The notes under the pieces were generated by a model that worked only from the letters and a program-made list of their open reading frames with translations, ran no database searches and was not told where the DNA came from. A stretch of 64,000 nucleotides of DNA, from assembly GCA_013420905.1 (NCBI GenBank), contig JAAXNY010000001.1:1674001-1738000 (forward strand). The letters are read 5' to 3'. How positions within the stretch are numbered: position 1 is the first letter of the stretch; each line of letters begins with the position of its first letter. This DNA is from Collybia mongolica. Lineage: Eukaryota; Basidiomycota; Agaricomycetes; Agaricales; Clitocybaceae. Position numbers and translations under genes: made by a program. This document shows positions 20,311 through 57,533 of this stretch, piece by piece.

Positions 20311-21526
20311 TGAAAGGGGGCTCCTGGGCTATAAGTGCGCTGATGCTATGAAATGTAATCTCTCTCACACACACACCAAACCTAACAATCAACACACGAA
20401 CAGTAGGAATCGCCTGTTTTGAGTTCGGGTTCAAGTGCTTAGAAGCACTAAGCTTTGAATAGTACTAGCCAAAGCCCTTTCCAATGATCTCTTGACGGGT
20501 TCGATTTAGACAAAAGCTTCAACACAGGTTCAAAAACCTGCTAGGTATATTTATAATATCTCTCGATCCAATAGACTGAGTACCAAGTATACGTTCAATT
20601 ATTAGTGATCCCAAGCGGATCTATAAGTCCAAGTGACTTATCAAACAATACAGTGCCAAGTGCACTAAGGCCAAGTGCCTAGTAATTCCAATGGACAATA
20701 CGGTACTAAGTTCCAAGTGAACTAAGTTTCTTTAATTCTGTGGTTCTCCAATCAATTCCAATCAAGACACGTTGAAGCAATCTGATCCTTAATTCGGGCA
20801 CGCAATAGTGTTTTAACAAATGTGATTTGTATACTCTATAGTTGCGAGAAGTGGGGGCAAGATTCCTTACCTTAGCGCTACTCATCTACAGTCTATTTAT
20901 AATGTACAAACTAAATATCATACGGAATTGTAAATTTTACACGGAACCGCGCTCCCGCGCGCCAAGGATCTGTATTCAATACCGACGCGTCTACTACAGC
21001 TTGGCGCGCGCGCCACGCGTGCCAATTATGTCGTTTACTGGTTACTTATCAAATATTGAAAGAGCGGGCTAAACTCTTATCAAGTCCCGACCACGCGCTT
21101 TGTTATTTAAAACAGCGCGGCACTGTCGTTTACTCCCCCTGATTGTCCCTGTTGTTATTCACGGTGTCCCGTCGCTTCCGGTAGTTAACACCAAGTACCC
21201 CTGACTAGGATCGGGTTGTGCAAGTCCCGAATTTACAATTACTTCTCCTATTAATGATGATCCCCGGACTAATGATATCATACTACAACGGTTACTTATG
21301 AACTAAGACACCGAGGTTGTAACCGGGCATGGTGAATAGGACTAATAATAGACCGTACTCATAGTCCTCTGTACTGATAGTGTATTATCCATTAGACTAG
21401 TTCACTCTGATTAGCCGTCTTGGAGCTCGACTCTAATCCTTTATTACCGCTTACTTGGTTATTAGAAATGACACTAATAGCCTTACTTGTCGACTTTATA
21501 AGTGCAAACAATTTCGGGCCCTATCA
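20311..21526 (-). repeat. Element 1, 3' LTR (1216 bp)
   Basis: In element orientation it starts TGATAGGGCC and ends CCCCTTTCA. It is a direct match to 33307-34522 and an inverted match to 37417-38633 and 48451-49667. It contains a cluster of CCAAGTG / CACTTGG words at about 20590-20720 that may be transcription-factor sites or simple internal repeats. Confidence 0.93.
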
Positions 21527-21540
21527 TCTCCCCCATACCA
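21527..21540 (-). promoter_or_regulatory. Polypurine tract of Element 1
   Basis: In element orientation the sequence just before the 3' LTR is TGGTATGGGGGAGA, the expected primer for plus-strand DNA synthesis. The identical tract precedes the 3' LTR of Element 2. Confidence 0.75.
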
Positions 21541-21978
21541 CAAATGTAGACTGTCCTCAGTCTCTCTTTGCCAGCATGTTGGTCCAATACTTCGGGTCTG
21601 CACGCGTCTAATCTTTCAGTACAATGTTACAACGGTTCCGCTTTTAGACAGGTAGGCGCGCGATGTTGGGATCGAGCCCAGAGGTTTTACTTCCCATCAG
21701 GATCGTGACAGCTATATACATCTCCTGAGAGAGTACTTGACATTCGGACATCGCTTTACAGATATTTCAGTCATCTGGACATTTTTCTCGTTATGTTTCT
21801 GACACTTCAGCAAGAGATCGGTACTCCTGTTTGTCTTTCAGAGCTTCGCAATGCAGGGTTGTGCGTTTTAAAAAGCTCGCGTCCTTGCTAAGTTTTAGAC
21901 AATTTGGACTTTATAGCCCATTTCTAAATCTCTTTGCTATCTGCATTGCTCAAACGCTCCAACTCTTTTCAAACAGAA

Positions 21979-23924
21979 ATGTCTTCCACTTCCACTTCCG
22001 CCATGGCTCGTGCTCTGCGCTCGCCTTCCGCACTGTCCCTCTCGCTTTCTGCCGCGATTCTGCCGACTGAGGGCCGTTCCCCCACCATGGTCTATGTGGA
22101 CCAGCCGATCCCTTCCTTCTCGGACCTCCTCGAAGATGCCGAGGGCGACGTCTTCGTCGCTATGGAGCAAGGGTGGATTATCATGGCCGAGGAGCTCGCG
22201 CCCCGTATGGACCACCAAGGTCCCCTTGACCTTGATGACTTGATCGACTTTGTCGATCACTGCTCCATGCTCATCGTACGCCCATCTTTTACTTGTTAAC
22301 TCCTTTTACTTATTTACTGGTCTCAGGATGCCATCACTGGCGTGGTCCGTGGCGCGCGTTTCTCGCTGCCATATCCGGCTATCCTCCTCCTGCGCGCGCT
22401 TCACCTTCAAGTGATGCGCATCCCTGTCGACGCGCGCGAGGCTTCGTGGTCTTCCTGGCGCACGGTCATATCGACTGACCTGGGCCACAATTCCATTCTT
22501 CTGGTAAGTGACTTGTTTACTTCTTTACTCTGCCTGCCCTTGTCAAGCTGACTACCTTTTACTTTAGGGCCAGGCTCCCACTGTGGAGCAAGTCCTGGAC
22601 CAGGTGGGGTCGCGCTTCAAGCGCGACAACGGTGAAAGTATCTTTCAGGATACTTTCCTCGTCCCTCCTCGCATGGTGGGCGCACCGCGCCGTTACCATC
22701 AGTACCGGGACAATTGGTCCGCCGCGCCCTTGCCGGCGCGCTCCCCGGTCTTGGTACCTGCGGTTCGTTTATCACTGCTTTTTATTACTTTCCTTCGGTG
22801 GTTGACTTATTTTAATAGCCCCTCAAGCGGAAGCGTAATGCTGGGTCCAAGGGAAAAGGCCGTGCGGTTCCCCAGGTATATCCTTTACTTTACGAGTTTC
22901 ACATTATTGCTGACTTGATTTCAAAATTCTAGTCCGACATGTCGCGCGCCCAGGGGACTGGCAGTGCTTCCGCGCTGCGTCCCTCGGAAGCAGGCCCGGT
23001 ATGTCTCTTTCTGAAGTCATTTACGTTTACTCATCTTTATCTCCTTAGTCCTCTGGGCAGCTGCCGGTGAAGGTTGAAGTCCCTGAGCTTCGGCTCTTCG
23101 ATGATGAGATCGCACGCCAGTTGGCTCAAGAGGGGTTCGCGGAGTTGTTGCCTCCCGCGGCCCCTTCTCCTCGTCGGTTGCGTAAGACCACCCGTTCTAG
23201 GGATAGGGCTCAGGCGACACGCCGCAAGCACGCGCTGGTTCCCAACCGGGAGCTGACGCCGCTACAGTCCCCTATTACCTCCCTGCTGGCTGACCTTGCG
23301 CCATGGCGCTCTTCCGTATGTTTATTACTACTTTATTTCTTGTTACTGATCATTTTTTTACTAGGTGGGCTATCCTTGCACGATGTGCGCCACCCGCGGC
23401 GACATTGAGTGCACCTTCAACGGTTGGGGTAAACCGTGCGTTGAATGCGCCACCGCCAAGAAGGGGAAGTGCAGCTTCAGCCTCACTCCCCAGAAGCGCG
23501 CTAGGCTTCGTGAGGATCTGGGGCCGATGCTTGGTGCGGGCATTTCTAGTAAGCCATTTTCTTTCTGTCTTTTTGTTTACTAATGATTTTACTTATTCTA
23601 CTAGCGGTTGCTGAAGCCTATGCTCAGCTAGGCAACGTGGACTCTCTTGCCGCGGAGGTCATTCAGGCCGCTAACCGCGCGCTTGAAATGCGCAACTCCT
23701 TGTTGGCGCGCATAGTTGGCACCATCGGTAAGTTGTACGAGGAGGAAGGCCTGGAGGGCCTTCAAAACCTCTTGCTGACTACGCCAGCCACGGAGAGCGC
23801 TCTCCTCTTCTACGCGGATTTCCAGAACCTCCCTTGGCCGCCCTTGGAGGAAGAAGCAGAGGTTGATGACGGTTCTTCGTCGTCAAGTTCCTCTTCGTCC
23901 GTGCCTGACAGCGAGGAGGAGTAG
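21979..23924 (+). CDS. Element-borne antisense gene A: Zn2Cys6-like protein, 520 aa
   Basis: Exons are 21979-22275, 22327-22503, 22568-22762, 22819-22875, 22933-22998, 23049-23315, 23365-23548 and 23605-23924, all GT-AG, summing to 1563 nt with no internal stop. It runs opposite to gag-pol and starts 453 bp inside the 3' LTR. Exon 4 has a basic nuclear-localisation-like motif (PLKRKRN, about residue 226). Exon 7 has six cysteines spaced C-x2-C-x7-C-x8-C-x2-C-x7-C (358-389: CTMC, IEC, CVEC, GKC), close to the fungal Zn2Cys6 binuclear cluster. The C-terminus is a Ser/Glu-rich acidic tail. A nuclear DNA-binding or regulatory role is plausible but inferred. I do not recognise the rest. Codons are GC-rich compared with gag-pol. 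Element 2 carries a diverged, broken copy (46169-47998). Confidence 0.75.
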
Positions 23925-24495
23925 CCGCGCCGCGCCCCCCCCCCTATATTTTTTTTTTATCTACTTGTGTTTTCCCGGGCCCCTGTGCCCTTACATATTA
24001 CTTATTCCCCCGCCTTTCGTTGGGCTTCAATTTTATTAATTGAAGTCCAACACATGTTTCTACATACAGTCCCCTGGACTATAAACAATACAATTGGTTT
24101 ACCCGTTGTTCTATTGTCTTCATAAGAAAGCTTCCGCCCTTGCACCGGCTACTTAAGTTATAAATATGGTGCAATTCTCTCGATCATTAAGACCGTGGTG
24201 CGATCACTGACTTTTTATAGACAATCTATTTCAATCCTTGTAACCTTGGTAGGTTTTTTCAAATCGATTTTGCTTATACCCATCTCCCCCTCAACACTGA
24301 CAACAACTGTCCCAGTTGTCATGCGGACACTGCCGCGCTCCACATGAATTTTTACGGAGCTCCTTTTTCAATTGGGCCCAGCATTTCAATTAGGCACGCG
24401 TCTCGGACCTGTTCAGTTGAAATGTATAGATTTTTCTGGGGATAGAACGCGCGCAACGAATGAGAGACTGGGTAGCGCTTCTCTAGTCGTAGAGG

Positions 24496-24504
24496 TATAA
24501 AAAG
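24496..24504 (+). promoter_or_regulatory. TATA box of antisense gene B
   Basis: TATAAAAAG lies about 100 bp upstream of the gene B start codon and is conserved in Element 2 (reverse strand, near 45568-45577). It supports independent RNA polymerase II transcription of gene B. Confidence 0.5.
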
Positions 24505-24601
24505 GGCACTGGCTGTGCTTTTTGTCCCAAGACATCGCCCGACTCTATTATACTCTCTTTACAACGTTCTGGTTCGAAGAATCAATTTCCTCTGCATTAT
24601 T

Positions 24602-25984
24602 ATGACTAGCCCCCCCAACTATCAAGACATCAAGAACTTCAAGATGGTCCAAGCTCAGTGGCACACCTTTCAAGCTCGTTTATCGATGGACACCCTTGTT
24701 GAACAAAGGGTCAGCATCCGGAAGTTAGGTGAAACCGCGGTACACTTTTTACCAATTACACTTTTTAAAACGCCGTTTTTGTAACCAGGTTTTACAATTT
24801 ACAGCTACTCCTGACTGAGTCCAAATTGGTTTTGACGGAGCGGTCCTGGCAGAATGTTATTTTTGGCGTCCGTAAGGCATTCCAGGGACTACAACATGTA
24901 TACCCCGAGTTACTTCAAGAGCCTGTTTACCGTAATATTGTGACTCTGACTGCCGCTATTCACCGTCACCGTGAAAAGGTCCGCACTGAGCACCTGTCTC
25001 AAACCGCGGTGCGTGCTTTTTACCTCATCTCGTACTGTACTGCTCTTTAAACCATGGTTTTCTGGTACTAGGTCCCTGCTACTGGTGGTGAAGCGGATGG
25101 TACCACTATTCCAGGCGAGGTCATTGCTGGCGGTGAATATGATGGTGACATTGAAATGTCTGGTACTGACTTGGTATGTTTCTTTTTAGCTACCGCGCTG
25201 TCAGTGCGCGACATACTCAATGGCGTCTCTTCTTTACTCAAGAATATGGTCATTGATTCCAGCGCTACAGCTAGTGCTACTGTCTCTGGATCAGTGACTA
25301 GTCGTCTCCTTAGTGAAGGACCAATCACCCGTAGCCGCAAGGAGAAGGAGAACATTAAGGTTCCCCATGTCAAAAGGACTAAGGCTGAAAAGGCTGCCAT
25401 CAAGGTACCCATTCTTGTTTTTGCTCTGTCTATTACTTTGTTTCTTATTCCTACAGGACGGCAAGCGTTCCGAGCTCAATCGCGGCAGCACTCTTCGTCC
25501 CAAAAAGCGTACGAGGCAAGACACCCCGGATGAAGATCCAAAGGTATCTGCTGAGGGTACGTTTTCTAATAATAGATGGTCCTAAATTTATACCGACTGT
25601 GCATCAGATACTCGTGTCTTTATTGACTTCCGTCCCTCCAAGGAGCACGATGTAGTCTTAGCGCGGGCGCGCTTGATTGCAGACGCGGGCGATCCCATGT
25701 CGCACACCAAGCAAGCCCTCGGTAGGATGCTTTTAAACTACCGCGCTGAGTTGGAGGAGATCAGTCATACAGTGTCCTTCTTATTGAAGCGTCGTGATGC
25801 CACTATGGACGAGGTTACTCGCCTCAATGGTCTAATGAACGAGGCCGCTCTGGAGGGAGGCTCTGACGAGGCTGCCACTGCGAGCACTACGGAAGTCCAT
25901 GACCAGGATGACAATGATAAGGAGGAGGTAGCTCCGGCTGACTTGCCCTTGCCCGAGGTTGAAGACGACTTCATATCTGCTTGA
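24602..25984 (+). CDS. Element-borne antisense gene B: unknown protein, 360 aa
   Basis: Proposed exons are 24602-24739, 24805-25008, 25072-25173, 25243-25404, 25457-25556 and 25608-25984, summing to 1083 nt and open throughout. The N-terminal 110 residues are helical (MTSPPNYQDIKNFKMVQAQW...). The middle is Ser/Thr-rich, then basic (RSRKEKENIKV, KRTKAEKAAIK, RPKKRTRQD), suggesting nuclear or nucleic-acid contact. A likely coiled coil (RAELEEISHTVSFLLKRRDATMDE) precedes an acidic C-terminus. I recognise no family. Intron 3 is the least certain: the stretch 25174-25242 is also open, so a longer product is possible. It ends 146 bp from the convergent end of pol. Element 2 has a copy about 2% different in exon 1 but missing the last 65 or so codons. 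Confidence 0.68.
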
Positions 25985-26130
25985 GGACAGTCCAATTAAC
26001 TTCCTCCTGAGTTATGGTGTCCCTCCCCACGCTCCTTTGTATTACTGTCTTTACTCGGCTTAACACTGTCCTTACTACTTCGCTTAGTTGCTTATACTGT
26101 CTTTACTGCTTCTGTTTCCATACTGATTTA

Positions 26131-29100
26131 TCACCTATGCAACTTCCGGTGTGACATAGTAGTTTGTGGTAGCGCCGGCGCTATCCCCTCCTCAGTGTTC
26201 TCACTAGAGCTTGACTCTGAATCGGACTGATCCAATTGGACTCTGTCAAACGTATAGTCACGCTCCTTGTAAACTTGCCTATTAGCGGGATCTTTCGATT
26301 CCACTAAAGCATTTAGTGTTTTGCTAGAGATGTCTATTAGATCTTGCAGATTATCCGGCAGTTCAATTGTACTCCTAGCAAAATAGGGAATAACCCTAAA
26401 CGCCCCCACTTTATGTTGCCACACCGATCCATCCATTTCGCAAACAATATAGGCTCCCCCGCGGTTTCGTCTAAGGACTATCATTGGTCCCAGGTACCGT
26501 GGCTTCAGCTTTTTATCGAGCGAACTTTCGACCTCGGTATTTCTAACTAGTACTAAACTTCCTGGTTTGAAATCATAGTCTCTGATGGTCGCGCTGTGAT
26601 CCTTCTCATACTGTAATAGTCTCCTTCGTTTTTCTATATTGATACGTTTCCTCATATCGGCCACATGCTGGACGTGCTTAGCTAGAGCCTGCGCTCTAAA
26701 TCCAATGAGTTCCTCTGTAGTCAATATTTTTCCTGGTAACTTTACTAACCAAGTGGCTTCGATAATATCTAACGGTAAGGTTGGGTGCGCGCCCGTAATC
26801 ATAAAATAGGGGGAGCAACCCGTCCCTTTCCATATAGTAATTCTGTCAGCCCACATTACATGGTGGAAGAAGTAGTACCACTTCTTTACATCACCACCTG
26901 TAGCTTTGAAGACAGCTTGACGCACATCCCAATGTGCGCGCTCGGCGATCCCATTTCCTTTGGAATTGTATGGTGATATACTTATTCCTGTAATACCATA
27001 CTTGGATTCCAGCCACGCTTTGGCTGCGACAAAGGCAGGACCATTATCCGTTACAATTTCCGTTAGGGAACCCCATCTACAAATTACTTCTTCGAAACAG
27101 CCACCTTCCCAAGGTCTTGCCATCCTCAGATTTGAGGGGCGCGCCTTCCATCCACGAAGACAGCGCACATCTCCCTTGGACAATGTATTTATAACCGTTA
27201 GACGATGGGCTCATATACATGGTGTCCGCATGCAATACTTGGAATATAGACGGCGTGTGGGTTATGACAGGAGGGATTCTCAACAAAGTTAAGAGCCTTG
27301 TCTGACAGATGTGACATGACTTCACATACCATGATACATCGCGTTCCATTTCTGGCCACCAAAATCTTTTATCTATTAAGGATTTTGTTGCATAGAAACC
27401 CCTATGTCCAACAGAATCGTGAGACGCCTTCATCATATATGTCCGGTGATTTTTATCAACAACAAGCTGGTGCGCGCTATCGATATTTTTCCTATACATC
27501 CTGCCTTCTGGATCCAAAAAGAAATTAGACGCCTGCCTTGCAAACTTTAGGTAGGCGCGATCTGTCATTCCTTTTGGTCTCTTTTGTGGTCTTTTTAACC
27601 ATTCTTTTATTAAAGGTAGGTTTTTATCCTGTTCCTGCGCCGTAGGTGTTCGTTTAGACTCATCATATACTTCCCTTACATTAGGGTCATATTTAAACTT
27701 TTCATCGGGTATGACAGTAGTATTTACAAGTTGCTTTAGATAAGCTTCTCTTTGAATACCGAACCGTCCTAAACCTAAGTGCTGTTTTACTTCTCCAATA
27801 AATGCTGCTTCACCAGCCCAGGCATTGTTTACTTCAACTTCAAAATCAGAGATTTCCTTCGCAAGTTGGAATAAATATCCGCTGCGCGTGTCGATCTCCT
27901 CTTTAAAATCTGACAGCTCCAAAGGGTCATCCAATCCTTCCGTTGGGTTGATAAACCTTAAAGGACCTGAGGGTTCGTCGTAACCATCGTCTGGGTCCGG
28001 GTAGACAGGATCCCCTAGCCGCGCGTCTCGTCTTGACAGACCATCTGGGCCAAAGCCTTTACCAGCTTTATGAACCAGAGTAAAGTGGAACATAAGTATC
28101 CTATCAATCCACCTATTTACCGTTGCATTAGGTCCTAGACTTGGGTTTGATAACATCCCCTTAATGTACTTTGCATCCGTTTCCACTACCAAATTTCGTA
28201 CTCCAATAAACCAATAATAACATGCCATTAGAACTCTCATCAATCCGAATAGCTCTCGTTTGGGTTGTGAGAAGCGCGCTTCGCGCTCATTCAGAGTTAT
28301 CGAGTCAAATCTAGCATAGTGCTTTCTTCCAGGTATATCAGGGTCTTCCTGATAGATATAGTAGCCTACGGCTTTCCATGACGTATCTACTGACAATACC
28401 ACTGGCGTATTCCAGGTGTAATTAATTGGACGGAGCGCGGGGCTATTTTTAAGTGCGTCTAACAATAGCTGCTGCGCTTCTTCTTGCTCAGGCCCCCATA
28501 TCCAAGGTTCACTACTTCTAGTTAACTTTTGAATTGGTTGGCCTATACGGGCGAAGTCTTTAATGAAATTCCTGCATACACCAATAGTTCCCATGTAAGC
28601 GCGTACTTCACTGACATCTTTGCATGGTCCCCATCTTTCAACTACACCGATTCTATCTGTAGTAGGTTTTCGTCCTTCATAGGTACATCTATGTCCTACC
28701 ACTAGAATTTCACTTGCGCATAACATAGACTTATATCCTGAAAACGTTCCTCCAGAATACTTCATTCTCTGTACGACGCGATTTACATTTTGCATATGTT
28801 CCCAGAAGAAGCGCCTAACACCTGGAGCACCAGGTAGCTCTTCTTCTGTTCCGTCCGGCAGTTCGTAGCGCGTTGCTGGACCGCGCACAGGGTACATCAT
28901 CAATGTAGGGTATTGTGACATGTGGTACCTCATCCTGTAGGATGTATGTGACATCATCATGAAATATTGGAACTGAATTCGTCCATCCCATAGGAAGTGT
29001 TACTAGTCTCAGCGCGCCAAACGGTGTTTGGAACGTGGTTAGATCGCGCGAGGTTTCTGCTAAAGGCCTCTCATCGTATCCTACATATAGATCCATCATT

Positions 29101-30176
29101 CCGCCACAAGCGCGCCCTGCGAAGTGTTCTGCTAGTTCTTCGGTAGCGGGTGGTAAGCCCGAGTGCGCTATTGTGACTGCATTCAGCGGTTCTAGACTAT
29201 GTACAATTCTAAGCTTCTTTCCTGGGCCTTTCTTTAATACGGTAAACCATCTAGACCTATATGATGAATTGGATCTCTCATAGACTCCTGCATCAATTTT
29301 AGTTTTGATGATTTTACAAACATCTTCATAGATCCCTGGTGGGATTCTAATGTTCCTTTCTGTCCACGGCGTATGTGGGACTACTGGTATCTCGACGGGA
29401 GGAAAATATTCCTTCTTAAAGCTACCGCGCTCACTATCATTCCAGGCAAAACCATCATTATGTTTGCACATAAAGTCGTGAATTATATCCATCTCTTTAG
29501 GTTTTAAGAAGCTCTCTTCTTCGTGTACCCTTTGGAATTCCGCGCGCCTTTCCTCAGTATACCTTCCAGTTGGTTTAAACGGAGGTGGGTTAGGCGTTAG
29601 AACGGGTAGGGCCGCTAAAGGGTCACCCTTTATATCTCTGATAATTCTAAATTTATCAGGCAGGTCCGCCAGTGTTGGTTTTGTTTTCAAATGTACTGGT
29701 TTATACTTCTTTCCTACTAACTGATCCATGGGCTCAATATTACACTTTTCACTTGTTGCAGTTCCAAGACCGCGCTCGTTGGTGCCAATTTGCCACCGCT
29801 TTAATTTACTTAAAGCTTTATCGATCATGGGCTGTTCTTGAGCGTATGTCATAGGTCTAGTGGGTGTACTTGCTGGGTCGCTGCTGTTCTGCTCGTAGTT
29901 TATTACTGGTCCATCGCGCTCATCTACGGAAGCCAAGTACGTGGCTAGTAATTCGCGTTCAGGTACTGTACTATTCATGTTCACATCACTTCTAGACAAA
30001 AAGACATCTCTAAGTTCTTTGTGACCAAAATTCCGTTTATCAGTAGGGTGTCTATAACCCGTTATAATAAAGTTTCCGTTCTCATCTTCAGCAATTTCTA
30101 CGGCTAGCTCTCCTTGATCACTTTGGATTAATTCATCGAAGGCCGAAAATCCTGCTCCGGTTGTCTTTTCAACAGC
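26131..30176 (-). pseudogene. Element 1 pol: RT, RNase H, integrase (two frameshifts)
   Basis: The pol frame opens after a TAA at 30177-30179 and overlaps the protease frame in the -1 register. It encodes a reverse transcriptase (LPMGWTNSVPIFHDD, active site YIDD) and an RNase H (VVLSVDTSWKAVGYYIY, ETDAKYIKGML). The integrase has an HHCC zinc finger (ASHDSVGHRG, CHICQ) and the DDE core residues in ADTMYMS, TDNGPAF and [10 protein letters not shown]. The order RT-RH-IN makes it Ty3/gypsy-type. Relative to Element 2 there is one extra base near 28889, just after YIDD. A second extra base near 27094 splits the integrase core. No chromodomain is visible at the C-terminus. This copy cannot make a full Pol. 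Confidence 0.85.
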
Positions 30177-31344
30177 TTAGGCGGTGATCCCTTTGCATGG
30201 GTAGGGATAGTACACCTTCGTCCCGTGTTAGGGTCCGTGATAGTGACTACTTGTCCCCCGTCCCGAGCATTTTTGATCTGACTTTCCGTGAGTGTATCAA
30301 ATGGTCTCCCAAGCAATACTTTGTATGCGGGTGAATTTATGATATGTACTTGGAGGTAGATGGCCATGTCATTAAACAAGAAAGGAACATTGCGCGCTAA
30401 TCCCGCTGTTTTCTCAACTTGTTTATTAGCACTCTGCATGTGTATGACAACGTCCGGATCCCATGAAATATCTAAGTCTAAAGCCGTTTGTTTAGCCATT
30501 GATACTATTTGGGATCCCCCATCTAATAAAGATTCCTCCGTTCCTGCCCCATTTATTACTGGATATACTGCGCGCAAAGAGGCCGATTCTTTTGCTACAT
30601 ACAACTGTTTGGGCTCTTCCCCAGCTGGTAAAGATTCTAAATACTGTAGGACTGGGTCTCCGCATATTATAGATCCCTTAGGTATTCCGCCGCGGTCATA
30701 CTCCGAGATGAAGAAAGACTGGAATGGGATTGACTCTACTGGTAGCGCGTCATGCCGTAAGTAGTTATCATCAAGTTCCCAGTCCCCTCCAAAGGGTAAG
30801 ACGTCTTCCTCATCTATTCCGTTTATTTGCAAGTTAGCGTCCCTTTGGGTAAGGGACTTACGTCTGGCAGTTACAATATTCTTTATTCCATCTCTAATGG
30901 TTTTTGACGAGCCCATTAACTCTCCCGTGGTCAATGTGATAGGGTTGTCTAACACTTTAGCAATTATATCGCCACTTTTTAATTTTACTTCTATCGGGGA
31001 CTTAGTTTCATAAGTCGGACCGCGCTTAGTGTTAAAATTAGGTAGCGGATCAACTGGTTCAGGGTTGCATTCCGTTCTCCGGGGTATGTAGGGTACCATG
31101 GGCACATCGATGTAGGGTAATTCTTTTCGTACTGGAGACTTTACTGATGGTTCAACAAATTTTACTTTCTTTTTCCTAGGAGACGGCACTACCAACTCCT
31201 CTTCGCTACTATCCCGACTACTCTCCGAATCGTTACTTTCTTGACGACTATTTCTGTTTTTATTTCGGTCCTCTGGCTGTCTCTTGGAACGCGACCTAGT
31301 CGTAGGTCTAGCGTGTTCCTTAGCCTCCTTCATCGGACCTAATT
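30128..31344 (-). CDS. Element 1 protease-region ORF (-1 frame relative to gag)
   Basis: A frame of about 400 residues with its own possible ATG (at 31333), open back to within gag. The N-terminal half is basic and Ser-rich (TRSRSKRQPEDR). The C-terminal half holds the retroviral-type aspartic protease: LLDGGSQIVSMAKQTALDLD, then HIINSPAYKVLLGRPF. The active-site triplet reads DGG instead of the usual DTG/DSG in both copies, so it is either a lineage variant or a defect fixed before they separated. Heptamer GAAACCC (GGGTTTC on the coding strand, 31345-31351) precedes the gag stop in the phase needed for -1 frameshifting. Confidence 0.78.
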
Positions 31345-32850
31345 GAAACCCGACTCTTTAACCTTGTTTTGGTTATTGAGTTCTGCTACCTGCCCTAATA
31401 AAGTACTCATTTGTGCTTGTAAGGCTACTATGTCAGGATTCGGCGCGCTCTTTGCCGTAGGATTATAGTTATTATTTATATATTCCTGTTTCTGCATCTG
31501 AGGCGGTACTGGCAACGCAGTTTGCGCGCCCTGTTGTCCTAACATTTGTTGCGCTTGAAATTGTGCCATTTGTGCCATTATGGCTTTCAAGGTTCCAATG
31601 TCATTACTATTGTCTACTGCATTATGTGACTGCATAACGGACAATACTCCTGGAGCGGGTCCTTCTGTGACATCTCCGTAATAAAGGGCCGCTACCTTCT
31701 TTGAATGGAAGTGTTCCACTTTATCTTTCAATGATACCGTTTCTGGTTCTCTTGGAATATATGATCTGTCTGGTAAGCATACTCCTCCATTTGCGTTGGT
31801 TTTTATTTTCCCTTCCTCAAAATGTTTCTGTTTCTCGGGACAGGCCATTATGAAGTGTCCGGGTGTAAAACAGTAGTGACATTTATACGCATTTGGTCTT
31901 TGCGGTTGTCCTTCTTTAGGCTTTCCGTACTGATTCTGATACTGATGCTGCTGGGGTGCGCTATTCGTGGCATGGTTCTGAACAGTTGCTTGTTGAAGCG
32001 CTTTCATTACATCCTCGAATCCACTCCTCGTATTCTTCTCATTTACTTGGAGACGGTCTAACAAATTAACTATTTGTTGTTTTATTTCATCCATCTCTAC
32101 TTTGATTTTGGGCGCTGCAGTTGCTGTTACGGACGTTATAAACGATCTATTTGTGTCTGGAATATTCATGTTGGCTACACCTTCAGAAATGCTGATTGCA
32201 GTTGCTATAACTTCCTCCAGATCGTACTGATCCCCTTTTCGTCGCGCGAGCGCGGCGGCTTCAGCAATAGTATTAGGATCTGCTCGGTTGTTTGTAGCAA
32301 TGGCTTGTCCTGCCTGTGTAGCATTAGACTGATTATTCCCTAGCAGGGTTAGCCTTCCTTGTACTTGGGATCTGAAGACTTCGTCTAGACACCCCAAGAA
32401 CTTGGTAACTAATTCTCGGTTAGAGATAATAGGTGGCCTAACTCCCAAGAGTTTAATAGATTCTGCTTTGAATTCACGCTTCAGCTTTTTCAGCGCGGCC
32501 TCATCGGTTACTCCAATACGTGGGTTGGCGCGACACACTGCTTCTAACTTGGCCACTGATCCTTCTACTTGATCGAGTGCTTCCGGATAACTAGAGATCA
32601 ACTCTGTCTTGAAATCCGTCCAAGTGCCTGTCTTATAGTGGTCTAATGCCCTCCACTCATTCTCTGATTGTAGGTCTGCGTATTTTCCTAACATTAACTT
32701 CTTTTCTTCATCATTTGTAATGTTACACTCCTTCCATAGGACCTCCATTCGCTCCAGAAACCGGATTAAACCCGTGGGCTCTTTTCCTTTGAATACTGGT
32801 GCATCACGGATGCCTGGTTGGGGCATATATTTACGAGGGGGTTCAGTCAT
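31339..32850 (-). CDS. Element 1 Gag
   Basis: Intact 503-residue Gag starting MTEPPRKYMPQ. A capsid-like helical region (about 15-200, with FLERMEVLWKE and YKTGTWTDFKTELISSYPEA) is followed by an Ala/Gln-rich linker. A single zinc knuckle, C-x2-C-x4-H-x4-C (CHYCFTPGHFIMAC), lies at about 320-335, and a Gln-rich, coiled-coil-like C-terminus ends the protein. It packages the element RNA in virus-like particles. It differs from the Element 2 copy by only a few residues. Confidence 0.85.
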   Translation of the reverse strand: MTEPPRKYMPQPGIRDAPVFKGKEPTGLIRFLERMEVLWKECNITNDEEKKLMLGKYADLQSENEWRALDHYKTGTWTDFKTELISSYPEALDQVEGSVAKLEAVCRANPRIGVTDEAALKKLKREFKAESIKLLGVRPPIISNRELVTKFLGCLDEVFRSQVQGRLTLLGNNQSNATQAGQAIATNNRADPNTIAEAAALARRKGDQYDLEEVIATAISISEGVANMNIPDTNRSFITSVTATAAPKIKVEMDEIKQQIVNLLDRLQVNEKNTRSGFEDVMKALQQATVQNHATNSAPQQHQYQNQYGKPKEGQPQRPNAYKCHYCFTPGHFIMACPEKQKHFEEGKIKTNANGGVCLPDRSYIPREPETVSLKDKVEHFHSKKVAALYYGDVTEGPAPGVLSVMQSHNAVDNSNDIGTLKAIMAQMAQFQAQQMLGQQGAQTALPVPPQMQKQEYINNNYNPTAKSAPNPDIVALQAQMSTLLGQVAELNNQNKVKESGFN

Positions 32851-33306
32851 GATTACTGAACGGTTCTGAGTAGCTAACGAGTTCGGGTTTGCTACTGGGT
32901 TTACTACGGACGATCTTCCGCGCGCTACTGGTTTACTAGTAGTCGATATGTTTCCTAAGGGCTCTGGAGTTCTAAATACTTGCCTTGGTCCTGAAGATCC
33001 AAAGGCTGGGTGTGAAGATCCTCGTGTGCGCGCTCGCCTAGGAGGTGGTAACGACTCTGTTACTCCAGCGTTTTGCGAATTTTTAGTCTGCCGCGTTTTT
33101 GTAGCTACTTGTCTTGCAAGTGGCTGATTAGTTAGTCTGTTTGACGAGCTGGCTTGTGGGCGTGGCTCTTGAGACAGATTGACTAAACTTTCTCCGCTCT
33201 ACTTCAATTTGTAGACGACGTTACTCGTCTTGGTATAATATTTTTCAAAGAAAGATGCTCTCTTTAGACTATTCAAAAACTCTGAACCCTCGCGGTGGGC
33301 TCCAGA
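32851..33306 (-). other. Element 1 leader, open in the gag frame without ATG
   Basis: The gag frame stays open for about 116 codons upstream of the first Gag ATG and then meets a TAG. The predicted extension is rich in Ser, Arg, Pro and Gln (e.g. PPPRRARTRGSS) and is conserved in Element 2. The putative primer binding site is at its 5' end, next to the LTR. Confidence 0.6.
33287..33304 (-). promoter_or_regulatory. Putative primer binding site, Element 1
   Basis: Two bases after the 5' LTR the element-strand sequence reads TGGAGCCCACCGCGAGGG, starting with TGG as expected for pairing with a tRNA CCA end. The tRNA was not identified. Confidence 0.5.
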
Positions 33307-34522
33307 TGAAAGGGGGCTCCTGGGCTATAAGTGCGCTGATGCTATGAAATGTAATCTCTCTCACACACACACCAAACCTAACAATCAACACACGAACAGT
33401 AGGAATCGCCTGTTTTGAGTTCGGGTTCAAGTGCTTAGAAGCACTAAGCTTTGAATAGTACTAGCCAAAGCCCTTTCCAATGATCTCTCGACGGGTTCGA
33501 TTTAGACAAAAGCTTCAACACAGGTTCAAAAACCTGCTAGGTATATTTATAATATCTCTCGATCCAATAGACTGAGTACCAAGTGTACGTTCAATTATTA
33601 GTGATCCCAAGCGGATCTATAAGTCCAAGCGACTTATCAAACAATACAGTGCCAAGTGCACTAAGGCCAAGTGCCTAGTAATTCCAACGGACAATACGGT
33701 ACTAAGTTCCAAGTGAACTAAGTTTCTTTAATTCTGTGGTTCTCCAATCAATTCCAATCAAGACACGTTGAAGCAATCTGATCCTTAATTCGGGCACGCA
33801 ATAGTGTTTTAACAAATGTGATTTGTATACTCTATAGTCGCGCGAAGTGGGGGCAAGATTCCTTGCCTTAGCGCTACTCATCTACAGTCTATTTACAATG
33901 TACAAACTAAATATCATACGGAATTGTAAATTTTACACGGAACCGCGCTCCTGCGCGCCAAGGATCTGTATTCAATACCGACGCGTCTACTACAGCTTGG
34001 CGCGCGCGCCATGCGTGCCAATTATGTCGTTTACTGGTTACTTATCAAATATTGAAAGAGCGGGCTAAACTCTTATCAAGTCCCGACCGCGCGCTTTGTT
34101 ATTTAAAACAGCGTGGCACTGTCGTTTACTCCCCCTGATTGTCCCTGTTGTTATTCACGGTGTCCCGTCGCTTCCGGTAGTTAACACCAAGTACCCCTGA
34201 CTAGGATCGGGTTGTGCAAGTCCCGAATTTACAATTACTTCTCCTATTAATGATGATCCCCGGACTAATGATATCATACTACAACGGTTACTTATGAACT
34301 AAGACACCGAGGTTGTAACCGGGCATGGTGAATAGGACTAATAATAGACCGTACTCATAGTCCTCTGTACTGATAGTGTATTATCCATTAGACTAGTTCA
34401 CTCTGATTAGCCGTCTTGGAGCTCGACTCTAATCCTTTATCACCGCTTACTTGGTTATTAGAAATGACACTAATAGCCTTACTTGTCGACTTTATAAGTG
34501 CAAACAATTTCGGGCCCTATCA
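33307..34522 (-). repeat. Element 1, 5' LTR (1216 bp)
   Basis: This is a direct copy of 20311-21526, about 1% different by eye and nearly all transitions. Its outer end (TATCA at 34518-34522) abuts TCGTGTTAAAC of the KDZ-associated gene fragment, with no GCGC target duplication. Confidence 0.93.
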
Positions 34523-38633: not shown

Positions 38634-38635
38634 TC

Positions 38636-38653
38636 TGGAGCCCACCGCGAGGG
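38636..38653 (+). promoter_or_regulatory. Putative primer binding site, Element 2
   Basis: TGGAGCCCACCGCGAGGG starts two bases after the LTR, identical to Element 1. It begins with the TGG expected for a tRNA 3' CCA end. Confidence 0.5.
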
Positions 38654-40600: not shown

Positions 40601-40605
40601 GTCCG

Positions 40606-41811: not shown

Positions 41812-44315
41812 TCCAAAGTGATCAAGGAGAGCTAGCCGTAGAAATTGCTGAAGATGAGGACGGGAACTTTATTATAACGGGTTATAGACACCCTACTGAT
41901 AAGCGGAATTTTGGTCACAAAGAACTTAGAGATGTCTTTTTGTCTAGAAGTGATGTAAACATGAATAGTACAGTACCTGAACGCGAATTACTAGCCACGT
42001 ACTTGGCTTCCGTAGATGAGCGCGATGGACCAGTAATAAACTACGAGCAGAACAGTAGGGACCCAGCAAGCACACCCACTAGACCGCTGACATACGCTCA
42101 AGAACAGCCCATGATCAATAAAGCTTTAAGTAAATTAAAGCAGTGGCAAATTGGCACAAACGAGCGCGGTCTTGGAACGGCAACAAGTGAAAAGTGTAAT
42201 ATTGAGACCATGGATCAGCTAGTAGGAAAGAAGTATAAACCAGTACATTTGAAAACAAAACCAACACTGGCGGACCTGCCTGATAAATTTAGAATTATCA
42301 GAGATATAAAGGGCGACCCTTTAGCAGCCCTACCAGTTCTAACGCCTAACCCACCTCCGTTTAAACCAACTGGGAGGTACACTGAGGAAAGGCGCGCGGA
42401 ATTCCAAAGAGTACACGAAGAAGAAAGCTTCTTAAAACCTAAAGAGATGGATATAATCCACGACTTTATGTGCAAACATAATGATGGTTTTGCTTGGAAT
42501 GATAGTGAGCGCGGTAGTTTTAAGAAGGAATATTTTCCTCCCGTCGAAATACCAGTAGTCCCACATACGCCGTGGACAGAGAGGAACATTAGAATCCCAC
42601 CAGGAATCTATGAAGATGTTTGTAAAATCATCAAGACAAAAATTGATGCAGGAGTCTATGAGAGATCCAATTCATCATACAGGTCTAGATGGTTTACCGT
42701 ATTAAAGAAAGGCCCAGGAAAGAAGCTTAGAATTGTACATAGTCTAGAACCACTGAATGCAGTCACAATAGCGCACTCGGGTCTACCACCCGCTACCGAA
42801 GAACTAGCAGAACACTTCGCAGGGCGCGCTTGTGGCGGAATGATGGATCTATATGTAGGATACGATGAGAGGCCTTTAGCAGAAACCTCGCGCGATCTAA
42901 CCACGTTCCAAACACCATTTGGCGCGCTGAGATTAGTAACACTCCCTATGGGATGGACGAATTCTGTTCCAATATTTCATGACGATGTCACGTACATCCT
43001 ACAGGATGAGGTACCACATGTCACAATACCCTATATTGATGATGTACCCGTGCGCGGTCCAGCAACGCGCTACGAACTGCCGGACGGAACAGAAGAAGAG
43101 CTACCTGGTGCTCCAGGTGTTAGGCGCTTCTTCTGGGAACATATGCAAAATGTAAATCGCGTCGTACAGAGAATGAAGTATTCTGGAGGAACGTTTTCAG
43201 GATATAAGTCTATGTTATGCGCAAGTGAAATTCTAGTGGTAGGACATAGATGTACCTATGAAGGACGAAAACCTACTACAGATAGAATCGGTGTAGTTGA
43301 AAGATGGGGACCATGCAAAGATGTCAGTGAAGTACGCGCTTACATGGGAACTATTGGTGTATGCAGGAATTTCATTAAAGACTTCGCCCGTATAGGCCAA
43401 CCAATTCAAAAGTTAACTAGGAGTAGTGAACCTTGGATATGGGGGCCTGAGCAAGAAGAAGCGCAGCAGCTATTATTAGACGCACTTAAAAATAGCCCCG
43501 CGCTCCGTCCAATTAATTACACCTGGAATACGCCAGTAGTACTGTCAGTAGATACGTCATGGAAAGCCGTAGGCTACTATATCTACCAGGAAGACCCTGA
43601 TATACCTGGAAGAAAGCACTATGCTAGATTTGACTCGATAACTCTGAATGAGCGCGAAGCGCGCTTCTCACAACCCAAACGAGAGCTATTCGGATTAATG
43701 AGAGTTCTAATGGCATGTTATTATTGGTTTATTGGAGTACGAAATTTGGTAGTGGAAACGGATGCAAAGTACATTAAGGGGATGTTATCAAACCCAAGTT
43801 TAGGACCTAATGCAACGGTAAATAGGTGGATTGATAGGATACTTATGTTCCACTTTACTCTGGTTCATAAAGCTGGTAAAGGCTTTGGCCCAGATGGTCT
43901 GTCAAGACGAGACGCGCGGCTAGGGGATCCTGTCTACCCGGACCCAGACGATGGTTACGACGAACCCTCAGGTCCTTTAAGGTTTATCAACCCAACGGAA
44001 GGATTGGATGACCCTTTGGAACTGTCAGACTTTAAAGAGGAGATCGACACGCGCGGCGGATATCTATTCCAACTTGCAAAGGAAATCTCTGATTTTGAAG
44101 TGGAAGTAAACAATGCCTGGGCTGGTGAAGCAGCATTTATCGGAGAAGTAAAACAGCACTTAGGTTTAGGACGGTTCGGTATTCAAAGAGAAGCTTATCT
44201 AAAGCAACTTGTAAATACTACTGTCATACCCAATGAAAAGTTTAAATACGACCCTAATGTAAGGGAAGTATATGATGAGTCTAAACGTTCAATAAGAAGG
44301 ACACTGTATGACTGA
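41763..44315 (+). CDS. Element 2 pol: RT and RNase H, integrase deleted
   Basis: The frame opens after TAA at 41760-41762. The likely entry is by -1 slippage at GGATTTT (41787-41793, CA-G GAT TTT in the protease frame). It encodes RT with LPMGWTNSVPIFHDD and YIDD, then RNase H with SVDTSWKAVGYY and ETDAKYIKG. The frame continues to VREVYDESKR and then crosses the deletion junction into reversed gene B sequence, adding SIRRTLYD before the stop. Integrase is missing, so the copy is not autonomous. Unlike Element 1, the sequence after YIDD is in frame (VRGPATRYELPDG). Confidence 0.85.
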   Translation, partial: AVEKTTGAGFSAFDELIQSDQGELAVEIAEDEDGNFIITGYRHPTDKRNFGHKELRDVFLSRSDVNMNSTVPERELLATYLASVDERDGPVINYEQNSRDPASTPTRPLTYAQEQPMINKALSKLKQWQIGTNERGLGTATSEKCNIETMDQLVGKKYKPVHLKTKPTLADLPDKFRIIRDIKGDPLAALPVLTPNPPPFKPTGRYTEERRAEFQRVHEEESFLKPKEMDIIHDFMCKHNDGFAWNDSERGSFKKEYFPPVEIPVVPHTPWTERNIRIPPGIYEDVCKIIKTKIDAGVYERSNSSYRSRWFTVLKKGPGKKLRIVHSLEPLNAVTIAHSGLPPATEELAEHFAGRACGGMMDLYVGYDERPLAETSRDLTTFQTPFGALRLVTLPMGWTNSVPIFHDDVTYILQDEVPHVTIPYIDDVPVRGPATRYELPDGTEEELPGAPGVRRFFWEHMQNVNRVVQRMKYSGGTFSGYKSMLCASEILVVGHRCTYEGRKPTTDRIGVVERWGPCKDVSEVRAYMGTIGVCRNFIKDFARIGQPIQKLTRSSEPWIWGPEQEEAQQLLLDALKNSPALRPINYTWNTPVVLSVDTSWKAVGYYIYQEDPDIPGRKHYARFDSITLNEREARFSQPKRELFGLMRVLMACYYWFIGVRNLVVETDAKYIKGMLSNPSLGPNATVNRWIDRILMFHFTLVHKAGKGFGPDGLSRRDARLGDPVYPDPDDGYDEPSGPLRFINPTEGLDDPLELSDFKEEIDTRGGYLFQLAKEISDFEVEVNNAWAGEAAFIGEVKQHLGLGRFGIQREAYLKQLVNTTVIPNEKFKYDPNVREVYDESKRSIRRTLYD
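41787..41793 (+). promoter_or_regulatory. Putative -1 frameshift site, protease to pol
   Basis: GGATTTT lies in the protease frame as CAG GAT TTT, six codons before the protease stop (TAA 41809-41811). Slipping back one base enters the open pol frame (TCG GCC TTC GAT). It is of the GGATTTN type known from betaretroviral pro-pol junctions. Confidence 0.5.
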
Positions 44316-45469
44316 TCTCCTCCAACTCAGCGCGGTAGTTTAAAAGCATCCTACCGAGGGCTTGCTTGGTGTGTGACAAGGGATCGCCCGCGTCAGCAAT
44401 CAAGCGCGCCCGCGCTAAGACTACATCGTGCTCCTTGGAGGGACGGAAGTCAATAAAGACACGAGTATCTGATACACAGTCAGTATAAAAATAGAACCAT
44501 CTATTATTAGAAAACGTACCCTCAGCAGATGCCTTTGGATCTTCATCCGGGGTGTCCTGCCTCGTACGCTTTTTGGGACGAAGAGTGCTGCCGCGGTTGA
44601 GCTCGGAACGCTTACCGTCCTGTAGGAATGAGAAACAAAGTAATAGACAGAGCAAAAACAAGAATGGGTACCTTGATGGCAGCCTTTTCAGCCTTAGTCC
44701 TTTTGACACGGGGAACCTTAATGTTCTCCTTCTCCTTGCGACTACGGGTGATTGGTCCTTCACTAAGGAGACGACTAGTCACTGGTCCAGAGACAGTAGC
44801 GCTAGCCGTAGCGCCGGAATCAATGACCATATTCTTGAGTAAAGAAGAGACGCCATTGAGTATGTCGCGCACTGACAGCGCGGTAGCTAAAAAGAAACAT
44901 ACCGAGTCAGTACCAGACATTTCAATGTCACCGTCATATTCACCGCCAGCAATGACCTCGCCTGGAATAGCGGGACTATCCGCATCACCACCAGTAGCAG
45001 GGACCTAGTACCAGAAAACCATGGTTTAAGAACAGTACAGTGCAAGATAAGGTAAAAAGCACGCACCGCGGTTTGAGACAGGTGCTCGGTGCGGACCTTT
45101 TCACGGTGACGGTGAATAGCGGCAGTAAGAGTCACAATGTTGCGGTAGACGGGCTCTTGAAGTAACTCGGGGTATACATGTTGTAGTCCCTGGAATGCTT
45201 TACGGACGCCAAAGATAACATTCTGCCAGGACCGCTCCGTCAAAACCATTTTGGACTCAGTCAGGAGTAGCTGTAAATTGTAAAAGTTGTTACGATAACG
45301 GCGTATATAAGTTAATTGGTAAAAAGTGTACCGCGGTTTCGCCTAACTTCCGGACGCTGACCCTTTGTTCAACAAGGGTGTCCATCGATAAACGAGCTTG
45401 AAAGGTGTGCCACTGAGCTTGGACCATCTTGAAGTTCTCGATGTCTTGATAGTTGGGGGGGCTAGTCAT
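44281..45469 (-). pseudogene. Element 2 copy of antisense gene B, 3'-truncated
   Basis: It starts MTSPPNYQDIENFKM at 45469 and follows the same exon pattern as 24602-25984. It breaks after the HTVSFLL codons, where the integrase-spanning deletion joins it to reversed pol. The frame closes two codons later at 44281-44283. About 65 C-terminal residues, including the acidic tail, are lost. Confidence 0.72.
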
Positions 45470-46168
45470 AATGATGCAGAGGAAATTGATTCTTCGAACC
45501 AGAACGTTGTAAAGAGAGTATAATAGAGTCGGGCGATGTCTTGGGACAAAAAGCACAGCCAGTGCCCTTTTTATACCTCTACAACTAGAGAAGTGCTACC
45601 CAGTCTCTCATTCGTTGCGCGCGTTCTATCCCCAGAAAAATCTATACATTTCAACTGAACAGGTCCGAGACGCGTGCCTAATTGAAATGCTGGGCCCAAT
45701 TAAAAAAAAAAGGAGCTCCGTAAAAATTCATGTGGAGCGCGGCAGTGTCCGCATGACAACTGGGACAGTTGTTATCAGTGTTGAGGGGGAGATGGGTATA
45801 AGCAAAATCGAATTGGAAAAACCTACCAAGGTTACAAGGATTGAAATAGATTGTCTATAAAAAGTCAGTGATCGCGCCACGGTTTTTAATGATCGAGAGA
45901 ATTGCACCAGAATTAAACCGTACTATTTATAACTTAAGTAGCCGGGGCAAGGGCGGAAGCTTTCTTATGAAGACAATAGAACCACAGCCAAATCAATAGC
46001 ATTGTTTATAGTCCGAGGGACTGTATATAAGACATGTGTTGGACTTCAATTAAAGAATTGAAGCCCAACGAAAGGCGGGGGAACTTAGGTAGCAGTAATA
46101 AAAGGGCCAGGGGCCCGGGAAAACACAAGTAGATAAAAAAAAAAAATAGGGGGGGGGGCGCGGCGCGG

Positions 46169-47998
46169 CTACTCCTCCTCGCTGTCAGGCACGGACGAAG
46201 AGGAACTTGACGACAAAGAACCGTCATCAACCTCTGCTTCTTCCTCCAAGGGCGGCCAAGGGAGATTCTGGAAGTCCGCGTAGAAGAGGAGGGCGCTCTC
46301 CGTGGCTGGCGTAGTCAGCAAGAGGTTTTGAAGGCCCTCCAGGCCTTCCTCCTCGTACAACCTACCAATGGTGCCAACAATGCGCGCCAACAAGGAGTCG
46401 CGCATTTCAAGCGCGCGGTTAGCGGCCTGAATGACCTCCGCGGCAAGGGTGTCCGCGTCGCCGAGCTGAGCATAGGCTTCAGCAACCGCTAGTAGAATAA
46501 GTAAAATCAGTAGTAAACAAAAAGACGGAAAGAAGATGGCTTACTAGAAATGCCTGCACCAAGCATGGGCCCCAGATCCTCACGGAGCCTAGCGCGCTTC
46601 TGGGGAGTGAGGCTGAAGCTGCACTTCCCCTTCTTGGCGGTGGCGCATTCCACGCACGGTTTACCCCAACCGTTGAAGGTGCACTCAATGTCGCCGCGGG
46701 TGGCGCACATCGTGCAAGGATAGCCCACCTAGTAAAAATGATCAGTAACAAGAAATAAAGTAGTAATAAACATACGGAAGAGCGCCGCGGCGCAAGGTCA
46801 GCCAGCAGGGAGGTAATAGGGGACTGGAGCGGCGTCAGCTCCCGGTTGGGAACCAGCGCGTGCTTACGGTGTGTCGCCTGAGCCCTATCCCTAGAGCGGG
46901 TGGTCTTACGCGACTGACGAGGAGAAGGGGCCGCGGGAGGCAACAACTCCGCGAACCCCTCTTGAGCCAACTGGCGTGCGACCTCATCATCGAAGAGCTG
47001 AAGCTCAGGGACTTCAACCTTCACCGGCGGCTGCCCAGAGGACTAAGGAGATAAAGATGAGTAAAAGTAAATGACTTCAAGAGAGAAAAGAGACATACCG
47101 GGCCTGCTTCCGAGGGACGCGGCGCGGAAGCACTGCCAGTCCCCTGGGCGCGCGACATGTCGGACTAGAATTTTGAAATCAAGTCAGCAATAATGTGAAA
47201 CTCGTAAAGTAAAGGATATACCTGGGGAACCGCACGGCCTTTGCCCTTGGACCCAGCTGTACGCTTCCGCTTGAGGGGCTATTAAAATAAGTCAACTACC
47301 GAAGAAAAGTAATAAAAAGCAGTAATAAACGAACCGCGGGTACCAAGACCGGGGAGCGCGCCGGCAAGGGCGCGGCGGACCAACTGTCCCGGTACTGATG
47401 GTAACGGCGCGGTGCGCCAACCATGCGAGGAGGGACGAGGAAAGTATCCTGAAAGATACTTTCACCATTGTTGCGCTCGAAGCGCGACCCCACCTGGTCC
47501 AGGACTTGCTCCACAGTGGGAGCCTGGCCCTAAAAGAACAAGGTAGTCAGCTTGACAAGGGGAGGCAGAGTAAAGAAGTAAACAATTTATTTACCAGAAG
47601 AATGGAGTTGGCGCCCAACGCGCGCCACGGACCACGCCAGTGATGGCATCCTGAGACCAGTAAATAAGTAAAAGGTTTTAATAAGTAAAAGATGGGCGTA
47701 CGATGAGCATGGAGCAGTGATCGACGAAGTCAATCAACTCGTCGAGGTCAAGGGGGCCCTGATGGTCCATACAGGGCGCGAGTTCCTCGGCCATAATAAT
47801 CCACCCTTGCTCCATGGCGACAAAGACGTCGCCCTCGGCATCTTCAAGGAGGTCGGAAAATGAGGGGACCGGCTGGTCCACATAGACCATAGTGGGGGAA
47901 CGGCCCTCAGTCGGTAGAATCGCGGCAGAGAGCGGGAGAGACAGCGCGGAAGGCGAGCGCAGAGCACGAGCCATGGCGGAAGTGGAAGTGGAAGACAT
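46169..47998 (-). pseudogene. Element 2 copy of antisense gene A, exon 2 deleted in part
   Basis: The exon structure matches 21979-23924, with start MSSTSTSAM at 47998 and the same stop context at 46169. Exon 2 is 56 nt (47595-47650) instead of 177 nt. The loss is not a multiple of three, so exon 3 is read out of frame and soon meets TGA. The zinc-cluster exon (CTMC...CVEC, about 46.68 kb) is still intact at sequence level. Exon 1 is unusually diverged from Element 1. Confidence 0.72.
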
Positions 47999-48436: not shown

Positions 48437-48450
48437 TGGTATGGGGGAGA
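48437..48450 (+). promoter_or_regulatory. Polypurine tract of Element 2
   Basis: TGGTATGGGGGAGA lies immediately before the 3' LTR, identical to Element 1. It primes plus-strand synthesis. Confidence 0.75.
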
Positions 48451-57486: not shown

Positions 57487-57533
57487 AAAGGTCAAGCTGA
57501 TCAGAATCGTCAACCTATTAAGGTTCAGACGCA

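Follow-up and report, generated by a model that had tools for sequence, protein, structure and literature searches.

Two predicted multi-intron antisense genes are maintained by selection in a Ty3/gypsy retrotransposon family of Collybia mongolica

We analyzed a stretch of 64,000 nucleotides (hereafter the window) from the mushroom Collybia mongolica (GenBank assembly GCA_013420905.1, contig JAAXNY010000001.1, positions 1,674,001 to 1,738,000, forward strand), which contains a Ty3/gypsy-type long terminal repeat (LTR) retrotransposon, Element 1. Its gag-pol lies on the minus strand, and two antisense genes, named A and B here, are located between integrase and the 3' LTR. Comparison with the other copies of this family shows that A and B, as modeled from the sequence, are protein-coding, spliced-type antisense genes that are maintained by selection while the element multiplies.

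Results

Gene models of A and B

B adjoins integrase (24602-25984, plus strand) and A adjoins the 3' LTR (21979-23924, plus strand), and the 12 introns of the two models as first read are 49-69 nt long with GT and AG ends (Table 1). The eight exons that an initial annotation, made from the letters of the window only, had assigned to A sum exactly to 520 residues, and this model was reproduced exactly. The six exons proposed for B likewise sum exactly to the claimed 360 residues, but the boundary between exons 3 and 4 is probably wrong. The sole relative of B found in the protein database, P0001 of the mushroom Collybia nuda (62% identity over the full length), fits introns 1, 2, 4, and 5 of B and retains the peptide that the 69-nt intron 3 would remove. 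When the alternatives were aligned to P0001, a 27-nt intron (25163-25189), which leads to a gapless match at that place, scored 1171, retention of the whole intron scored 1152, and the 69-nt intron (25174-25242) scored 1095. Because P0001 keeps the peptide and the 27-nt intron aligns best, the 69-nt version is probably wrong and intron 3 is probably 27 nt, giving a protein of 374 residues, with the retained intron (383 residues) as the alternative. The 69-nt stretch has a single length in 27 of 27 copies, which is weaker evidence because four of the other eleven introns are constant too. A 27-nt intron would be far shorter than the others (49-65 nt), and such shortness is unusual.

Inspected by eye, the A protein has a six-cysteine cluster, basic segments, and an acidic tail, and the B protein has basic segments and an acidic tail.

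Presence of A and B in the copies of the family

We searched the genome (46 Mb, 26 contigs) for copies of the element. The DNA search gave 36 matches from the best 34 of 164 candidates, which were retrieved as 34 stretches; seven truncated or incomplete stretches (L036-L042) were left out of the counts, leaving 27 copies with the window included. In 20 of these, both genes are intact: they keep the ATG, the stop codon, and the reading frame, and each intron begins with GT or GC and ends with AG. A lesion was found in A in six copies and in B in one. None of the 27 copies lacks any of the 12 introns, and none lacks A, whose presence was counted in this way; systematic linkage to integrase was counted for B.

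For this linkage, the integrase end was used as a query; all 139 candidates were scored and gave 138 matches, of which 97 (≥ 85% identity, nearly the full query) were kept and 41 shorter or more distant ones dropped. Exon 6 of B lies on the opposite strand within 1.5 kb of 82 of the 97 long integrase matches, and in 73 of the 82 the distance is exactly 153 nt. The remaining 15 matches have no listed B exon 6, a number that is an upper limit, as the best 113 of 277 B candidates were scored. Some of these places are local deletions by their coordinates: at C2:304278, A lies almost directly beside integrase, and at C24:10563 there is B exon 2 with no listed exon 6. Seen from B, an integrase match lies no more than 2 kb away, on either strand, for 88 of the 92 exon-6 matches listed. 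Among the matches listed, the protease frame is linked to B within 12 kb at 73 of 102 places and unlinked at 29. An old copy (L043, 81% identity in B exon 6) is decayed: its B is without the first exon and has many CpG-type changes, and A is unrecognizable in that stretch. No full-length copy without both genes was seen, all but one of the 15 places where B exon 6 is not listed beside integrase having been left unread. The proposal of the initial annotation that A and B are a property of the family and not a chance capture in one copy is thus borne out by the linkage in both directions.

The initial annotation had also explained how introns could survive retrotransposition in this position. 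The genomic RNA carries the reverse complement of antisense introns, which are therefore not removed before reverse transcription. The introns of A and B persist because the RNA that is reverse-transcribed carries the other strand, and this agrees with the observation that no intron was lost from any of the 27 complete copies.

Selection on the coding frames

The exons and the introns differ in how their lengths vary among the copies. In six of the 12 introns the length differences are not divisible by three (A intron 4, for example, is 57, 58, 61, or 62 nt and B intron 1 is 61 to 66 nt), A intron 5 varies by 6, and five are constant. In intact genes, the only exon length changes are 0, +30 (L012), or −9 nt (L013), and the A gene of L010 has one −1 change. 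Mean divergence over the 27 copies at the first, second, and third codon positions is 0.026, 0.025, and 0.083 in A, and 0.024, 0.012, and 0.046 in B.

Plain dN/dS (nonsynonymous to synonymous substitution rate) is 0.19-0.25 between subgroups and 0.33-0.38 between the closest copies. This measure could mislead because CpG sites mutate fastest, and therefore a CpG-aware expectation was used: the substitution rates by base and CpG context were taken from the introns and intergenic DNA and projected onto the exons. The counts are differences from the window copy, which are not independent, and the terminal stop codon was left out (L031 has lost that of A). In 26 copies, the expected ratio of nonsynonymous to synonymous changes (N/S) for A is 2.03 and the observed one 0.60, a quotient of 0.29; for B, the values are 2.24, 0.91, and 0.41. 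Internal stops were expected 50.4 times in A and 32.8 times in B, and none was observed in either. With six subgroup representatives, the quotients are 0.32 (A) and 0.51 (B), with no stops against 14.1 and 9.0 expected; in the six copies taken singly, they range from 0.23 to 0.40 for A and from 0.29 to 0.87 for B. The integrase end, treated in the same way, gives a quotient of 0.27, with three stops observed against 27.8 expected. By this measure of sequence divergence, the constraint on A is close to that on integrase, and the constraint on B is somewhat weaker. The initial annotation had named random decay of the frames across copies among the outcomes that would speak against it; such decay is rejected for the best-scoring copies examined here.

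CpG transitions are the fastest class compared in the noncoding DNA, at about twice the rest, and 10 of the 13 variable positions in 25150-25249 are at CpG. The fast CpG transitions suggest that the copies are methylated.

Conserved noncoding DNA

Two noncoding stretches stand out in the alignment of the copies. The first is a nearly invariant block within the LTR (Table 1). The second lies ahead of B, at about 24275-24575, with a divergence of 0.4-1.6%, whereas the four 50-nt bins that directly follow gene A diverge by 5-12%. Within the latter, TATAAAAA ahead of the B start codon is kept in 33 of 33 aligned copies that cover the site, window included. Both stretches behave as expected of promoters or protein-binding regions and are candidates for these. 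In the search for a shared binding motif, CGGTTAC-N23-GTAACCG was found in the LTR block, and the region around this block (21190-21420) contains 10 CGG and CCG triplets against a shuffled mean of 4.6, which is only a hint, picked out after looking.

Antisense six-cysteine genes in other gypsy families

Antisense genes encoding six-cysteine proteins were also found after the integrases of two other gypsy families of this genome. In family 2, whose integrase is 43-45% identical to that of the Element 1 family, the gene is located 422-432 nt after the integrase match at all seven places. In family 3 (41-50% identity in the main pieces), it is located 285-537 nt after integrase at six of seven places, and none is listed at C16:23385. 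The family 3 gene that was read has an integrase on either side: one, which shares its strand, belongs to another element, and the second, that of family 3, is on the opposite strand. The gene is assigned to family 3 because it accompanies the integrase of this family at six places. The same-strand integrase (L045:1-1551, plus strand) is an integrase end with a chromodomain-like tail, as judged by eye, of another gypsy element adjoining the family 3 copy. A fourth family may be represented by a place on C9 (integrase 36%, protein 33%). At the distant integrase C10:2940071, no such antisense gene was among the matches listed.

The C-terminal ends of the family 2 and family 3 proteins are related to each other (36% over 47 residues, pairwise E 1.3e-5), and A has no significant pairwise similarity to either. 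The cysteine spacings are x2-x7-x8-x2-x7 in A, x2-x7-x8-x2-x6 in family 2, and x2-x7-x7-x2-x6 in family 3. In all three, a phase-0 intron lies four or five residues ahead of the first cysteine, the donor in family 3 being a choice among candidates. The similar cluster together with the phase-0 intron makes a shared origin of the cluster exon plausible, though not proved.

Structure of the elements and their surroundings

The assignment of Element 1 to the Ty3/gypsy type is based on a direct LTR pair with TG...CA ends, a polypurine tract, GGGGGAGA, ahead of the 3' LTR, and the Pfam domains RVT_1 (below its cut-off), RT_RNaseH, and Integrase_H2C2 (both above the cut-off), in that order. The two LTRs are 98.9% identical (blastn, 13 differences in 1218 aligned positions). 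The pol region is broken and spread over three frames in Element 1, and many other copies have a single open pol frame of 1347 residues. The gag, protease-region, and pol frames (28815-33198, minus strand) overlap by 19 and 49 nt, each stepping to the −1 frame; the first overlap contains GGGTTTC, a possible slippery site, and the second has no such heptamer. Two −1 shifts in succession would be unusual in a Ty3-type element.

Element 2 (37417-49667, plus strand) looks recently inserted, with just 2 differences between its LTRs over 1217 aligned positions. In the comparison of flanks for a target-site duplication, it has GCGC on both sides, and the flanks of Element 1 do not match each other. 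The initial annotation had placed both genes at the same site in Element 2; the place was confirmed, but the genes are not intact there, as a 120-nt deletion has removed part of A exon 2 and a second deletion takes the ends of both B exon 6 and integrase. We considered whether Element 2 represents a non-autonomous subfamily and dropped the idea, the deletion junction occurring once in the genome at ≤ 2 mismatches.

Elsewhere in the window, a second gypsy-like gag-pol, recognized by eye, is followed by a frame of 327 residues that runs in its direction and has no clear match in Pfam (57522-63303, plus strand), and long frames at 13089-16658 (plus strand) resemble a non-LTR retrotransposon, again by eye.

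Table 1. Coordinates of the antisense genes, the element parts and the candidate regulatory DNA (window positions unless a locus label is given; ORF, open reading frame; RT, reverse transcriptase; GC3, GC content at third codon positions)
Feature	Position	Strand	Basis or remark
Antisense gene A, 8 exons, 520 aa, GC3 0.70	21979-22275, 22327-22503, 22568-22762, 22819-22875, 22933-22998, 23049-23315, 23365-23548, 23605-23924	+	Exon sums and copy comparison
Antisense gene B, 6 exons, probably 374 aa (360 aa in the first reading)	24602-24739, 24805-25008, 25072-25173 or 25072-25162, 25243-25404 or 25190-25404, 25457-25556, 25608-25984	+	Exon sums, copies, P0001
Six-cysteine cluster C-x2-C-x7-C-x8-C-x2-C-x7-C, wholly within exon 7 of A	23377..23472	+	Read from sequence; no Pfam match
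TATAAAAAG, 106 nt before the ATG of B, within the conserved stretch (about 24275-24575)	24496..24504	+	Copy alignment
Nearly invariant LTR block	21211..21410		0.1-0.5% divergence per 50-nt bin against 2-10% in other LTR bins; 25 copies compared with the window
5' LTR of Element 1	33307..34522	-	Ends TGATAG...CTTTCA; blastn of both LTRs, ends read from sequence
3' LTR of Element 1	20311..21526	-	blastn of the LTR pair; ends read from sequence
gag ORF, 619 aa, zinc knuckle	31339..33198	-	Pfam PF13696 just below its cut-off
Protease-region ORF, 409 aa, −1 frame relative to gag	30128..31357	-	Weak PF13975 match, below its cut-off
pol (RT, RNase H, integrase), three frames in Element 1	26131..30176	-	ORF list and Pfam scan
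Genes A and B of Element 2, both damaged	44288..47998	-	Sequence comparison
Family 2 antisense six-cysteine gene	L044:449-1147	-	One stretch read; other places 87-100% identical
Family 3 antisense six-cysteine gene	L045:2335-3075	+	One stretch read; other places 92-99% identical

Discussion

We favor, with modest confidence, the reading that A and B are accessory genes of the element family and most likely encode DNA-binding proteins that work in the nucleus to regulate the transcription or silencing of the element itself. The host would transcribe both genes toward integrase and then splice and translate them, with B transcribed from its own TATA promoter between the genes and A from its leader or the adjoining 3' LTR. 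The basic segments of both proteins are consistent with a nuclear location, and the cysteine cluster points to DNA binding. Targets of the two proteins may then be the invariant LTR block and the promoter between the genes, through which they would tune or de-silence the element. An anti-silencing role would be attractive, but it is a guess. VANC of the VANDAL transposons is an element-encoded anti-silencing protein that lifts DNA methylation from the element's own copies, and A and B might by analogy share this role, VANDALs being plant DNA transposons. The human T-cell leukemia virus type 1 (HTLV-1) protein HBZ, which is spliced, is comparable in working principle only, and no sequence relationship is claimed. 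HBZ is an antisense-encoded retroviral protein with a nuclear location, according to the available part of PMC11963269.

Several observations weigh against this reading. The copies compared are the best-scoring ones, so that decay is under-sampled, and the noncoding reference is imperfect, as the 1070 synonymous changes observed in A exceed the 608.9 expected, probably owing to conservation within part of the noncoding DNA itself. Methylation decay appears mild (CpG observed/expected 0.96 in A and 0.81 in B). The inverted repeats in the LTR block are not above those of shuffled sequences (as many were found in 43 of 200 shuffles at arm length 7 and in 20 of 200 at arm length 6), and CGG and CCG triplets are below the shuffled means in the A leader (5 against 7.0) and the B promoter (6 against 9.3), so that no binding site is shown by these counts. 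Searches of the protein database found no relative of A (7996 candidates; 572 for residues 335-480), Pfam and PDB gave none for A either, and these searches gave B no relative whose function is known. With a mean predicted local distance difference test score (pLDDT) of 40 for P0001 and 56 for A exon 7, the structure models are of too low quality for a fold search. The initial annotation had seen a Zn2Cys6-like cluster in one gene; the six cysteines of A stand, but Pfam Zn_clus (PF00172) did not match A (E ≤ 1), nor did it match A exon 7 or the cluster exon of family 2 (E ≤ 10), and the spacing is not canonical. The Zn2Cys6 spacing is C-x2-C-x6-C-x5-12-C-x2-C-x6-8-C, whereas the first loop is x7 in A, family 2, and family 3, so that these clusters resemble Zn2Cys6 without having its canonical spacing.

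A role of A and B as accessory genes in the replication cycle, such as nuclear import of the pre-integration complex, integration targeting to chromatin, or packaging, seems to us a good deal less probable, yet it is the strongest of the competing explanations. It would account for the position of B directly beside integrase at a fixed distance in most linked copies and for selection on A that is comparable to that on integrase, with B somewhat weaker, and nuclear transport of the pre-integration complex is raised for plant elements in the part of a review available (PMC7264820). However, conservation among the noncoding stretches compared is highest in the LTR block and the B promoter, which argues for regulation, and nothing ties the A and B proteins physically to integrase.

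It is improbable that A and B are recently captured host genes that hitchhike without function. Their intron-richness and their GC3 (0.70 for A and 0.54 for B, above the 0.39-0.44 of gag-pol; 0.49 for a host gene recognized by eye in the window) would suit a capture, but the presence throughout the family, the purifying selection, the relative in Collybia nuda, and the finding that only 4 of the 92 listed B matches lack integrase within 2 kb speak against a recent one without function. Capture of host genes remains plausible as the ultimate origin of A and B.

Slightly less probable again is that the antisense RNA is the useful product and damps the element through double-stranded RNA, with the protein frames incidental. 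Antisense transcripts would pair with the 3' part of the genomic RNA, a possibility raised in the accessible part of PMC7264820. This explanation is largely refuted by the depressed N/S, the lack of internal stops by substitution, the exon length changes in multiples of three in intact genes, and the intron length changes that ignore the frame. Finally, the possibility that the exons were simply picked from open frames in decayed DNA, which would make the spliced models artefactual, can practically be dismissed: the introns are short and reader-chosen and B intron 3 looks wrong, but frames, splice sites, and exon lengths hold in the copy comparison and P0001 matches.

Genes in a similar position are known from plants. 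The antisense ORFs termed aORF-3R (Grande gene23, RIRE2, Retand, PvRetro13) lie between pol and the 3' LTR, and nuclear or DNA-binding roles have been suggested for them in the parts of PMC7264820 and PMC11963269 available. A and B resemble these as described there, being a coding region in the same place, antisense to gag-pol, present in most copies (82 of 97 for B), and conserved about as well as other element proteins. They differ in being two tandem genes with seven and five introns in a mushroom host and in having a six-cysteine cluster and no Pfam match to TRP28 (PF04195, of the Retand antisense ORF) in A or B; the main text of the two papers contains no word that begins with 'intron'. 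The initial annotation called two multi-exon antisense genes unusual for fungal elements; the impression that fungi lack such genes is not supported, given the Boty LTR elements of Botrytis and Sclerotinia, which carry an antisense gene, brtn (Zhao et al. 2011, as cited in the available parts of PMC7264820 and PMC8365987). Boty is likewise a fungal LTR element with an additional antisense gene, but with one gene and in ascomycetes; we compare it by its description only and claim no sequence homology. The available part of a review of LTR retrotransposons in fungi (PMC3248453) has nothing on antisense genes.

In the open-access literature searched, we found no case of antisense or spliced genes in mushroom gypsy elements, which is not proof of absence since subscription papers were mostly outside the search. 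As far as this literature shows, what is new relative to the plant and Boty cases is the two tandem multi-intron genes, the measurement of selection beside integrase, the mushroom host, and the recurrence of an antisense six-cysteine gene across gypsy families. More tentatively, and with greater doubt than for A and B themselves, mushroom gypsy elements with integrases 41-50% identical might share an old class of intron-bearing antisense six-cysteine regulators after integrase, with a phase-0 intron before the cluster, joined here by B. Such proteins could bind LTR DNA as element-specific activators or anti-silencers, forming a two-strand regulatory system of host-spliced genes.

Introns are normally lost from retroelements. 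In this family, 12 of them (the boundary of one is disputed) are carried along by placement on the opposite strand, and it is the spliced product that is under selection. In genome annotations, genes of this kind may pass for ordinary host proteins, possibly including P0001 in Collybia nuda. If A and B regulate the LTR or lift methylation, they would provide a compact, testable case of a mushroom retrotransposon that encodes its own transcription control.

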